The position numbers and the translations under genes were made by a program. Positions 18,471 through 59,078 of a DNA stretch of 64,000 nucleotides are shown here, piece after piece. The stretch is from Chitinophaga sedimenti. GTDB lineage: Bacteria; Bacteroidota; Bacteroidia; Chitinophagales; Chitinophagaceae. The stretch is taken from the NCBI RefSeq assembly GCF_023156195.1, contig NZ_JAKUKA010000001.1, positions 434,001 to 498,000 on the forward strand. The letters run 5' to 3'. Position 1 is the first letter of the stretch. Each line of letters starts with the position of its first letter. The notes below the pieces were generated by a model, which was given only the letters and a program-made list of their open reading frames with translations, made no database searches and was not told the origin of the DNA.

Positions 18471-18530
18471 ACGTTCAGGGTTAAAGTTTTTGGGATGGAT
18501 GATGTCGACTCGTTCCTGAAAATACGCAAA

Positions 18531-18569
18531 AAAGCCCATGCAGAAACGGCTGCATGGGCTTTTTTTTAT
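18531..18569. terminator. strong terminator between two minus-strand genes
   Basis: An 11-bp perfect stem AGCCCATGCAG/CTGCATGGGCT with loop AAACGG is flanked by A-runs and T8, so it can act on both strands. On the minus strand it terminates the secreted protein gene at 18584-20642. Confidence 0.85.
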
Positions 18570-52870: not shown

Positions 52871-55997
<3,127 letters not shown>

Positions 55998-56084: not shown

Positions 56085-57289
56085 TTACAGTGCCTTGTGA
56101 CGATCCGTTAACACAAGACTTAAAGCGATGAGGCCGATTCCTGCAAACCCGATGACCATGGGCATCACACTGTGCGCCAGCAATGCCGATATAATGGAGC
56201 CCAGGGAGGCGCCGACGAAGAAGAAGCAGGTGCCGTACAGCGAAGCGGCAATACCGGCCATATCGCCCATGGGCTCCATGGCCAGCGCGCTGCTATTAGG
56301 CTCGATGGCCAGGTTGGCGCCCATCAAAAGACCAATGCAGGTAAAGAAAAAGGGGAGTGGCGGCTGCGGCCGGAATAAAAGACTGCCGGCTAATAAAACC
56401 ATGGCTACAACGACGTAGATGATCAGTAATCCTTTTATGGCGCGGCGGGTGCCAAACCGTGCAGAGATGGCCGCGTTAGACAAGGCGCCCAGCGCCATGG
56501 TGAGTCCGATGGCCCCGAATATGATGGCAAACAACGTGGGTTGTCCGTAAAGGTCGCTGATGATATGTTCGGAACTGGCTACATAAGTACTGATGCCTGT
56601 AAACAAAATGGTGGTGAGGGTGGTATAACGAAGAAAGGTGGTGTTGCGGAGTGCATGCCCGATAGCGCGCAGCACTGCCCCGGGATGAATAACACTGCGG
56701 CGCTCCGGTGGTAATGATTCTTCCAGGCGGAAAGACCAGAGTGCAACCACCACGGCGAAAGCGGGGGCGTCAGGAAAACGGCCTGCCAGGAAGCAACGGA
56801 GAGAATGACCAGTCCCAGGAAAGGTGCTACCACCGGCGTAAACAGGAAAATGGTCAGGATGAATGAAAGCGTCCGCGCCATCGCATCGCCGGAAAAGCGA
56901 TCGCGTACGCCTGCTATCGTGGTCATAAATACCGCGGATGCGCCCATACCCGCCACGAAACGTGCGGCGAACAGGATGGACAGGCTGGGGGCAAAAGCAG
57001 CTACGATGCCGCCGGCGATGTACAGTGGAAACCCGATGCGCAGGATGGCCAGCCGCCCGTACCGGTCGGATAAAGTGCCGAACAGCAGTTGCGCTACTTG
57101 TCCCCAGAAGAAGAAGGTTACTACTTTGGAAGTGTCGGCCGAATGTGGCCCCAGGCCGAAGTGACGCCGCAGTTCGCCGAATACGGGCAGCATGATGTCG
57201 ATCCCTACAGCAGTAAGCATCATGCTGCAGGCCGAAAAGGCGATGAATTCAGAAGTAGACATCCGCATAGCGGGAGGATTGCTGATCAT
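56085..57289 (-). CDS. MFS drug-resistance transporter (Bcr/CflA type), frameshifted
   Basis: This 12-helix exporter carries GIDIMLPVFGELRRHFGL at the first helix and WGQVAQLLFGTLSDRYGRLAI (motif A) after helix 2. The frame breaks near 56775, where C5 should be C6, and resumes AFAVVVALWSFRLEESLPPE into the C-terminal six helices. The reconstructed length is about 400 residues. The adjacent TetR gene upstream on the same strand, with a palindromic operator, suggests ligand-induced efflux. Confidence 0.9.
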
Positions 57290-57340: not shown

Positions 57341-57946
57341 TTACAGGGTGATTTTAGCCGCATGCCGTGCAGACAAGTACGGATAAAACATCGCCTCCAT
57401 CTGCCGGGTAAACGCCGTTGCGGCCTTTTCGCCCCGCAACTGATCGGTTAGCTCGTTACTCGACAGCCAGAAATCTGCCACAATAAAAATCTGCCGTACC
57501 AGTGCTTTCCACACCTTGGGGGGAACATCTTTCTGAAATATACCTCCCTGTACCAGCTTTTTAAAGATTCCTTTAAACTCCTTTTCCCGCCGTTGCATCA
57601 TACCGGCATACTGCTCCCGGATTTTGGGAAGGCGGGCGCCAATGGCCACGAAGTGCAGGAAGATAAAACGATACTTATATTCGATGTCGAACGACTGGCG
57701 GTAAAACGAACGCAGCGTATCCAGCCCGATGTGTTTTACTTTATCCAGGTTGATGACGAGCACGCTGAATTCCGCCACCAGCCGGTCCCACAATGCCATG
57801 ATCACATCATCTGTCTGTTTAAAATGATAATGGAGGTTGCCGGGACTGATGTCCATCGCGGCCGCAATGTGGCGTGTCGTAGCATCGATGCCTTTTTCAT
57901 TATACAACTCCAGGGCGGCGGCAAGTATGCGTGATTTGGTGTCCAT
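57341..57946 (-). CDS. TetR-family transcriptional repressor
   Basis: The N-terminal HTH (RILAAALELYNEKGIDATTR, HIAAAMDISPGNLHYHF) and an all-helical ligand-binding domain make 201 residues. The C-terminal part resembles the TetR group with DUF5122-like PYLSARH ends. A perfect 18-bp inverted repeat directly upstream is the obvious operator, giving autorepression and control of the divergent small gene. The MFS gene 51 nt downstream is probably in the same transcript. Confidence 0.9.
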   Translation of the reverse strand: MDTKSRILAAALELYNEKGIDATTRHIAAAMDISPGNLHYHFKQTDDVIMALWDRLVAEFSVLVINLDKVKHIGLDTLRSFYRQSFDIEYKYRFIFLHFVAIGARLPKIREQYAGMMQRREKEFKGIFKKLVQGGIFQKDVPPKVWKALVRQIFIVADFWLSSNELTDQLRGEKAATAFTRQMEAMFYPYLSARHAAKITL

Positions 57947-57956
57947 TCCTCAAAAA

Positions 57957-58001
57957 TAGAACAAATGTACTAATCCGGAATAAATTAGTACATTTGTTCT
58001 A
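57957..58001. promoter_or_regulatory. TetR operator with divergent TAnnTTTG promoters
   Basis: The arms TAGAACAAATGTACTAAT (57957-57974) and ATTAGTACATTTGTTCTA (57984-58001) are perfect 18-bp inverted repeats around a 9-nt spacer. Each arm contains TACATTTG on the strand reading outward, a perfect -7 box, so repressor binding would block both promoters. Confidence 0.85.
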
Positions 58002-58006
58002 AATTG

Positions 58007-58201
58007 ATGTGCATGGAAACGCCAACGGAGTCAAAAGAGGAAAAGTCGTTATGGAAAACGATCAGGCAGTCTGTACTTCCCGTAAAAGACACGGATCATC
58101 AACTGGTTAAAGTCAGTAAGAATACCGGTTTTGCTATCTTTTTAATATTGTTCTCATGCGTATCGCTGGCATTAGTATCGGCCATTGCATTCGTACTCTG
58201 A
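58007..58201 (+). CDS. small membrane protein under TetR operator
   Basis: A 64-residue protein (MCMETPTESKEEKSLWKTIR) with one C-terminal helix (FAIFLILFSCVSLALVSAIAF). The mRNA would start at most a few nucleotides before the ATG, given the -7 box at 57989-57996, so ATG 58013 may be the true start with a near-leaderless transcript. The family is unknown. Confidence 0.55.
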   Translation: MCMETPTESKEEKSLWKTIRQSVLPVKDTDHQLVKVSKNTGFAIFLILFSCVSLALVSAIAFVL

Positions 58202-58551
58202 AGTCGCTGTCCGATCCGCTATTTTGCGGTTATTTCGCGGCCTGGCTGCTGATTCATATTTGCAGGTGGGCACATTATCCTATTCCCTTGCTTAACAACT
58301 GGCTCACGGATTTTCTGTTTGTTCCCGCAGTGGCGCATATCGCGTTAACGCTTACCCAACAACTATTTCTTCGCAATCCGGCTTATCGATACCCGCTACA
58401 TTTCCTGTTGCTGGCCGCATTATACGTGTCCATTGTTTTCGAGATCGTGTTACCACGCTATTATTCCTTTACCACAGGCGATCCTGTGGACGTGATCTGT
58501 TACTTCGCCGGCGCCTTCTTCTATTTTGGCGTGCATCAGCGAATCAAGTAA
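58156..58551 (+). CDS. small polytopic membrane protein
   Basis: About four helices: PLFCGYFAAWLLIHICRW, LFVPAVAHIALTLTQQLF, FLLLAALYVSIVFEIVLP and DVICYFAGAFFYFGV. Similar short proteins in Bacteroidota carry an unverified transporter name, so I give none. It overlaps the preceding gene by 46 nt in another frame. The start may be later or the overlap may reflect a missed base. Confidence 0.55.
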   Translation: MRIAGISIGHCIRTLKSLSDPLFCGYFAAWLLIHICRWAHYPIPLLNNWLTDFLFVPAVAHIALTLTQQLFLRNPAYRYPLHFLLLAALYVSIVFEIVLPRYYSFTTGDPVDVICYFAGAFFYFGVHQRIK

Positions 58552-58560
58552 TTTTGATAG

Positions 58561-59078
58561 ATGAAGGACATTATCATCACCAAAGCAAATGTGCGGGACG
58601 TAGCCACTATTCAATTAATAGGGAGGGGCACTTTTTTGAAACCTTCGCACAACACAATACCGCTGAAGATATGCAAAAATACCTCGATGAAAGCTTCAGT
58701 GAAGCCAAAGTACAGGCCGAACTGGTAAACCCCCAATCGTTTTTCTTTATCGCCTGGGAAGATAATAATCCCGTTGGTTACCTAAAACTGAATGTAGGCG
58801 GCGCGCAAACCGAACCACAAAATACCTCCGCCATGGAAATCGAACGCATTTATGTACAGGCTGCCTGGCATGGTAAAAAGGTAGGGCAACTCCTGTACGA
58901 CAAAGCACTCGCCACTGCGCAGGAGCAGGGTAAAGCCTATCTCTGGTTAGGGGTGTGGGAGGAGAATGTACGGGCGATCCGCTTTTATGAAAAGAACGGG
59001 TTTGTGGCGTTTGATAAGCATATTTTCAGGATTGGTCAGGACGAGCAGACGGATATTATGATGAAGAAAATGTTATAA
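58561..59078 (+). CDS. GNAT-family N-acetyltransferase, frameshifted
   Basis: An acetyl-CoA-dependent acetyltransferase. From ATG 58561 (MKDIIITKANVRDVATIQLI) a T6 run near 58636 should be T7, restoring FETFAQHNTAEDMQKYL. The core motif IERIYVQAAWHGKKVGQLLYD binds the CoA pyrophosphate, and ENVRAIRFYEKNGFVAFD is motif B. The 172-residue reconstruction fits GNAT. The substrate is unknown. Confidence 0.87.

Follow-up and report, generated by a model that had tools for sequence, protein, structure and literature searches.

The 64,000-nucleotide stretch of the Chitinophaga sedimenti genome analysed here (the window) contains, between a tetR gene and a divergent gene for a small membrane protein, a perfect inverted repeat, and the question that this locus raises is which protein acts on the repeat and which genes are thereby placed under common control. 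Comparative analysis of the sequences makes it, in our judgment, highly probable that the repeat is the operator pair of the adjacent TetR and controls both tetR itself and the divergent operon that consists of the small gene and a gene for a lipocone-like membrane protein.

The inverted repeat and the genes around it

The repeat stands as originally described, with arms that are complementary in 18 of 18 positions and a spacer of 9 nt (Table 1). Among the perfect inverted repeats of the window with arms of at least 12 bp and spacers of at most 30 nt, it is the longest, and the arms found in 20 dinucleotide shuffles of the window did not exceed 13 bp; the exact repeat is present in a single copy in the 6.42-Mb genome, with spacers of 5-13 nt allowed. 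Each arm is by itself a quasi-palindrome with an 8-2-8 layout (TTAGWACA-WW-TGTWCTAA) and, therefore, the segment comprises two sites, 29 bp apart, which most likely are adjacent operators for the neighbouring TetR-type repressor. Next in length among the perfect inverted repeats of the window is one at 18528-18565, with 16-bp arms and a 6-nt spacer.

Table 1. Features of the locus, in coordinates of the window
Feature	Coordinates	Strand	Remarks
Putative operator 1, TTAGTACATTTGTTCTAA	57985..58002	+	0 mismatches to the consensus; covers the predicted -7 box of the small-gene/lipocone operon
Putative operator 2, ATAGAACAAATGTACTAA	57956..57973	none	1 mismatch; overlaps the predicted promoter of tetR; distance to operator 1, 29 bp
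18-9-18 inverted repeat	57957..58001	none	arms 57957-57974 and 57984-58001; supported by arm complementarity and the shuffle control
Predicted -7 box of the small gene, TACATTTG	57989..57996	+	predicted +1 at ~58001
Predicted -7 box of tetR, TATTTTTG	57951..57958	-	4 nt 5' of the ATG; predicted +1 is the A of the ATG (57946)
Mirror box, TACATTTG	57962..57969	-	alternative tetR -7 box; leader ~11 nt
tetR	57341..57946	-	201 aa; TetR_N PF00440 and PF13972
Small protein	58013..58201	+	62 aa, revised start; single TM (from sequence)
Lipocone/VanZ-like membrane protein	58156..58551	+	131 aa if counted from the first ATG (start uncertain); immediately preceded by the small gene
Bcr/CflA-type MFS gene	56085..57289	-	two ORFs (56085-56753, 56579-57289) in this assembly; adjoins tetR

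The tetR product scores 39.2 bits against PF00440 (cut-off 24) and 63.6 bits against PF13972 (cut-off 25), and the small protein has no match in Pfam, NCBIfam or PHROGs. The lipocone-like protein, for which PHROGs likewise holds nothing and which presumably is the one that goes under the name 'magnesium citrate secondary transporter', gives a confident five-helix AlphaFold2 model (pLDDT 90.8); Foldseek yielded no significant match to it, VIA-align reached a best Z of 4.6 among the Foldseek candidates, and a profile search of solved structures returned a chance-level match alone. Pfam VanZ does not match the window protein or 19 homologues at E up to 1. In a comparison of profiles, VanZ (PF04892) and the lipocone-like family align over the conserved E...D..D stretch with an hhalign probability of 31.7 and an E of 5e-4, a weak similarity for which the controls gave at most 0.62 (20 column-shuffled profiles) and 0.23 (reversed profile). 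By eye, a GH2-like gene (52885-55997), the MFS gene and the start of a GNAT gene (58554-59078) appear to be split over two frames; the genome consists of 3 contigs and is rated 80% complete, and the assembly may be indel-prone.

Promoters and start codons

In F. johnsoniae, the -7 box spans positions -12 to -5 and the -33 box is hardly visible (PMC6847099, in part); in the window, there is no TTG at the usual -33 spacing. The TACATTTG box is found on the coding strand of the small gene in 29 of 30 homologues and lies 16-18 nt 5' of the start codon in 26 of the 30, the exceptions being the window (10 or 16 nt, depending on the start codon), L036 (32 nt), L058 (22 nt) and L052 (22 nt, with TACCTTTG). 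The open reading frame for a divergent protein of 64 residues, as first read, does exist, but because the box-to-start spacing of the homologues fits the ATG at 58013, we revised the start to that codon, which leaves 62 residues. The leader of the small gene is then predicted to be about 12 nt long, with +1 near 58001.

On the opposite strand, a TAnnTTTG box precedes the tetR ATG by 3-4 nt in 14 of the 15 linked Chitinophaga loci and in 66 of the 80 loci of the TetR set described below; among all 15,919 ATGs of these 80 loci, 99 have such a box, the 66 of tetR included. The tetR mRNA is predicted to be leaderless, starting at its own AUG, and the original assignment of nearly leaderless transcripts to the plus strand is, accordingly, turned around. 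The original prediction also placed a -7 box in each arm of the repeat and read the two as mirror-image promoters. The TACATTTG box indeed occurs on both strands, but none of the other 14 linked Chitinophaga loci has the tetR-strand mirror copy, nor does any of the 80 loci of the TetR set within 40 nt 5' of tetR (0/80), and the reading as mirror-image promoters is not supported; in this strain, the mirror box could possibly serve as a second tetR promoter. At L021, L025-L028 and L031, a TACATTTG box ends 5 nt before the ATG.

Leaderless mRNAs or mRNAs with very short leaders account for 5.5% of the total in F. psychrophilum (PMC9723704, in part), and ~3.7% of the 5' UTRs in B. thetaiotaomicron are shorter than 10 nt (PMC7366714, in part). 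The retention, across families, of a predicted leaderless mRNA for one regulator would be unusual, such leaders being a minority in Bacteroidota.

Conservation across Chitinophaga and other Bacteroidota

Within the genus, the comparison covered 30 tetR loci, namely, that of the window and those of 29 same-genus relatives (L002-L031), and 29 small-gene loci (L032-L060). A site with at most 3 mismatches is present before tetR in all 30 of the former (L017 was read with a shorter flank) and before the small gene in 28 of the 29 latter; the exception, G001, carries the pair of small and lipocone-like genes but neither a tetR orthologue nor an operator. In 14 genomes where the small gene is unlinked from tetR, the site is still found before it, with 0 mismatches in five genomes, 1 in one, 2 in three and 3 in five; the last five sites rest on their position because three-mismatch sites are at the background level genome-wide, the window genome containing 27 matches at 3 or fewer mismatches compared to 23 in the control.

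The joint distribution of the genes points in the same direction. Across 99 genomes, a tetR orthologue (E better than 1e-40) and the pair occur together in 29 (G025 counted, the small gene being seen in its neighbourhood), tetR alone in 2 (G053 and G012, both of which keep the site), the pair alone in 1 (G001), and neither in 67, a co-occurrence for which the Fisher p-value, uncorrected for phylogeny, is 1.5e-21. A second search, with the alignment of the lipocone-like family as query, recovered these 30 genomes with the pair (29 at E of 1e-40 or better; the locus of G015 is cut by a contig end). It also detected more distant homologues (E from 1e-7 to 1e-23) in G007, G033, G048, G049, G086 and G098, none of which has a tetR match better than 1e-40.

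Beyond the genus, a TetR set was assembled from the best 80 of 335 relatives recovered by a TetR alignment search. It spans Chitinophaga, Niabella, Filimonas, Pedobacter, Sphingobacterium, Flavobacterium, Neptunitalea, many Chryseobacterium and a few others; 18 of the 80 loci are titled Chitinophaga, several of these being shared with the same-genus set, and 62 bear other names. With up to 2 mismatches allowed, 97 sites fall within the 9,600 nt upstream of tetR (120 nt per locus, 77 of the 80 loci) as against 2 in the 430,025 nt elsewhere, and these 2 precede same-strand small-gene/lipocone/tetR operons of two Pedobacter loci. Conservation thus indicates, for this PF13972-type TetR, a palindromic operator beside its own gene, either within 120 nt or, in those two loci, at the operon start. 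One such site is found before tetR in 59 loci, two in 16, three in 2 and none in 3. By the rule that we applied, 72 of the 80 loci have a divergent lipocone-like gene next to tetR, a number that rises to 75 if L195, L224 and L230 are counted, where the stop-to-stop frame of that gene runs just past the cut of the rule; L185 and L232 have the site with no lipocone match, and L238 is the only locus of the set that lacks both. All these loci are related by descent, and the counts do not represent independent events.

In the family-wide tally, tetR lies beside the lipocone-like gene in 8 genomes, all with the site (7 of them new; G043 is L114, already in the first set), and no site with 3 or fewer mismatches is present at the 11 loci whose 1.5-kb flanks contain no tetR; the tally leaves out L117 (decayed), L133 (a second copy in the L124 genome) and L115 (the window itself). 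In the phylum and family searches, at most 14 candidates per genome were scored, so that members may be missed. The TetR-small-gene/lipocone layout is, as judged by these comparisons, found in many soil and water Bacteroidota. L117 resembles a natural deletion, with a tetR remnant, a truncated small gene, no operator and the lipocone-like gene kept.

Where two operators are present, their distance varies. Among 30 pairs in the Chitinophaga loci, some of which are duplicated, the spacing is 21-23 bp in 14 and 29-31 bp in 16, whereas spacings of 19, 20, 27, 28 and 32 bp also occur in the 80-locus TetR set. A strict helical phasing of neighbouring operators, confined to 21-23 or 29-31 bp, is thus not supported, and the phasing is loose.

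Alternative explanations, related systems and the proposed switch

The original prediction had the repeat control a tetR-MFS efflux operon, with the small protein as an accessory, and looked to syntenic tetR-MFS loci for the small gene. The MFS ORF starts 51 nt past tetR on the same strand and may be co-transcribed with it; its product resembles Bcr/CflA drug exporters, and weak MFS-superfamily matches (21-25% identity) occur in the wider neighbourhood of several relatives, beyond the lipocone-like gene in L056 and L101 and ~2.7 kb upstream of tetR in L094. However, a match to the window MFS directly follows tetR in none of the 29 other Chitinophaga tetR loci (1.5-kb flanks), and there is none anywhere in the 80 loci of the TetR set. 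The MFS gene is thus, by this comparison, outside the conserved unit, and the conserved partner of the small gene is the lipocone-like gene, which lies downstream of it in all 29 small-gene loci, also away from tetR; an efflux operon with a small accessory is, therefore, an improbable reading. Far less probable still is an RNA hairpin, a terminator or the end of a mobile element: the perfect 18-bp stem could fold, but the repeat is A+T-rich and flanked by divergent starts, and what persists in relatives is the single 18-bp site at its position, as in the 59 single-site loci of the TetR set.

It is conceivable, too, that the sites are bound mainly by another regulator, for example, a TetR paralogue with a like half-site, at any rate in genomes where the pair and tetR lie apart. 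Other TetR clades do carry closely similar sites and adjoin genes that we take, by eye, to be flavin-monooxygenase-like or release-factor-like. The half-site in these clades is mostly TTAGTACA or TTAGGTCA, as opposed to TTAGAACA in the linked clade, and the recognition helix is mostly SHGNLQYHY, as opposed to S[PA]GNLHYHF; that half-site and helix mostly vary together between the linked clade and the paralogues supports the pairing of the linked TetR with these sites. Furthermore, only one TetR matches at E <= 0.001 in the window genome, and linked loci retain the repressor and the site together, which argues against a paralogue as the main binder and leaves it with little probability. Points that weigh against the operator reading itself include the missing TTG at -33, the sites kept without the pair in G053 and G012 or without a lipocone match in L185 and L232, the six genomes with distant lipocone-like genes and no tetR orthologue, and operator-like sites with no visible link to the system, at L063, L064 and L076. 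L063 and L064 are, apart from the two window sites, the closest matches of a pattern search in the same genome, a 1-mismatch site at C2:16060 (L063) and a 2-mismatch site at C1:6284023 (L064); both were rejected as regulon members, the former locus appearing decayed and the latter site lying within an ORF. L076 is a 0-mismatch site in G065 (C62:4544-4561), upstream of a gene for a large subtilisin-like secreted protein (named by eye), and neither tetR nor a lipocone gene is present among the ORFs of the 3 kb around it.

Similar sites accompany other TetRs as well. In L094, L097, L098 and L100, second-clade TetRs are divergent to a flavin-dependent monooxygenase-like gene (by eye, from the N-terminus), with operator-like sites between them; in L095, L096 and L099, the site is directly before the tetR of another clade, and the gene beside it is, presumably, release-factor-like. 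TTAGAACATTTGTTCTAA-like sites are found in L092 (2848-2865) and L093 (2871-2888), at distant TetRs from other families of the order (27-28% identity) that lie upstream of apparent acyl-CoA carboxylase genes (by eye).

Returning to the preferred reading, an operator pair for the adjacent TetR, comparison of the loci establishes the conservation of the operators, of their association with both tetR and the small-gene/lipocone pair, and of the promoter spacing. At the level of sequence, this upholds the original notion of a TetR-type operator overlapping the divergent -7 boxes and coupling the small gene to tetR. From this arrangement, we infer TetR binding, repression and release by a ligand. 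A TetR dimer on 57985-58002 would cover the -7 box of the divergent small-gene/lipocone operon, and one on 57956-57973 would cover the tetR promoter, resulting in autoregulation; with one dimer per operator, neither -7 box would be accessible to RNA polymerase. Both sides would be induced once a ligand frees the repressor; plausible candidates are lipid intermediates and compounds that act on the membrane or the envelope. The lipocone-like protein, by analogy with its superfamily, might perform lipid head-group chemistry.

This design has a classical counterpart. In the Tn10-type tet operon, tetA and tetR are divergent, and the operators tetO1 and tetO2, of ~19 bp each, are ~30 bp apart. As in that operon, where two operators of one TetR-type repressor overlap the tetR and target promoters and provide for autoregulation (PMC3037858, in part), two putative operators in the window overlap the predicted divergent promoters of tetR and its target. 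The target here, however, would be the small-TM/lipocone-like pair, not an efflux pump, -7 boxes of the Bacteroidota type form part of the operators, and relatives have one to three operators.

The pair, in turn, is reminiscent of the Skillet-2 system, a lipocone with a single-TM zinc-ribbon protein (PMC12419801, eLife 2025, in part), in that a conserved single-TM protein precedes a lipocone-like membrane protein. In other Bacteroidota families, the lipocone-like gene follows that of a longer single-TM protein with CxxC..CxxC in 7 of 20 TetR-free loci, and the stretch of this protein that follows the ribbon aligns with residues 6-40 of the small protein (in hhalign, at a probability of 91.6 and an E of 8e-7; maximum of 9.3 in 20 column-shuffled controls). 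Unlike in Skillet-2, the partner in the window carries neither a zinc ribbon nor an HTH in its cytoplasmic part, CxxC..CxxC is absent from all 80 TetR-linked loci (0/80), and there is a separate TetR with its operator; in the Skillet-2 paper (PMC12419801), the string 'tetr' occurs only within tetratricopeptide. The aspartates of Skillet-2 have counterparts in D109/D112 (three residues before the helix-4 Asp) and D52 (helix 2), invariant in 20 sequences, and the AlphaFold2 model has helices at 49-72 and 110-130. In place of the helix-3 ExxQ motif, which is 'largely' conserved in Skillet-2 (PMC12419801, in part), there is FExxxP with E96 and P100 invariant, and the helix 1-2 linker (39-48), where the helical handle of Skillet-2 was sought, is a coil in the model. 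Because two defining features, the ribbon and ExxQ, are lacking, we refer to the pair as Skillet-2-like and not as a member.

A broader scenario, which we offer tentatively and consider rather unlikely to hold in full, is that, in several families of Bacteroidota, an old pair of a zinc-ribbon single-TM protein and a lipocone-like protein lost the ribbon, presumably a regulatory element, and was placed in a very narrow TetR regulon of its own, with a leaderless repressor mRNA and a -7 box that adjoins or overlaps the operator. The repressor would sense membrane-lipid or envelope stress and set the lipocone activity accordingly; the direction of the change, a loss of the ribbon and not a gain, is presumed.

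TetR switches with two operators are classical, and a lipocone/single-TM pair has been published; a small-TM/lipocone pair under a conserved TetR operator with a predicted leaderless tetR mRNA was not found in the literature searched, mostly by title. Taken together, the findings predict an operator, a promoter pair and a regulon of nearly a single operon for a Bacteroidota TetR of the PF13972 type, and make an uncharacterised lipocone-like membrane protein accessible to genetics. Identification of the ligand to which the repressor responds would hint at what the small-gene/lipocone pair works on.
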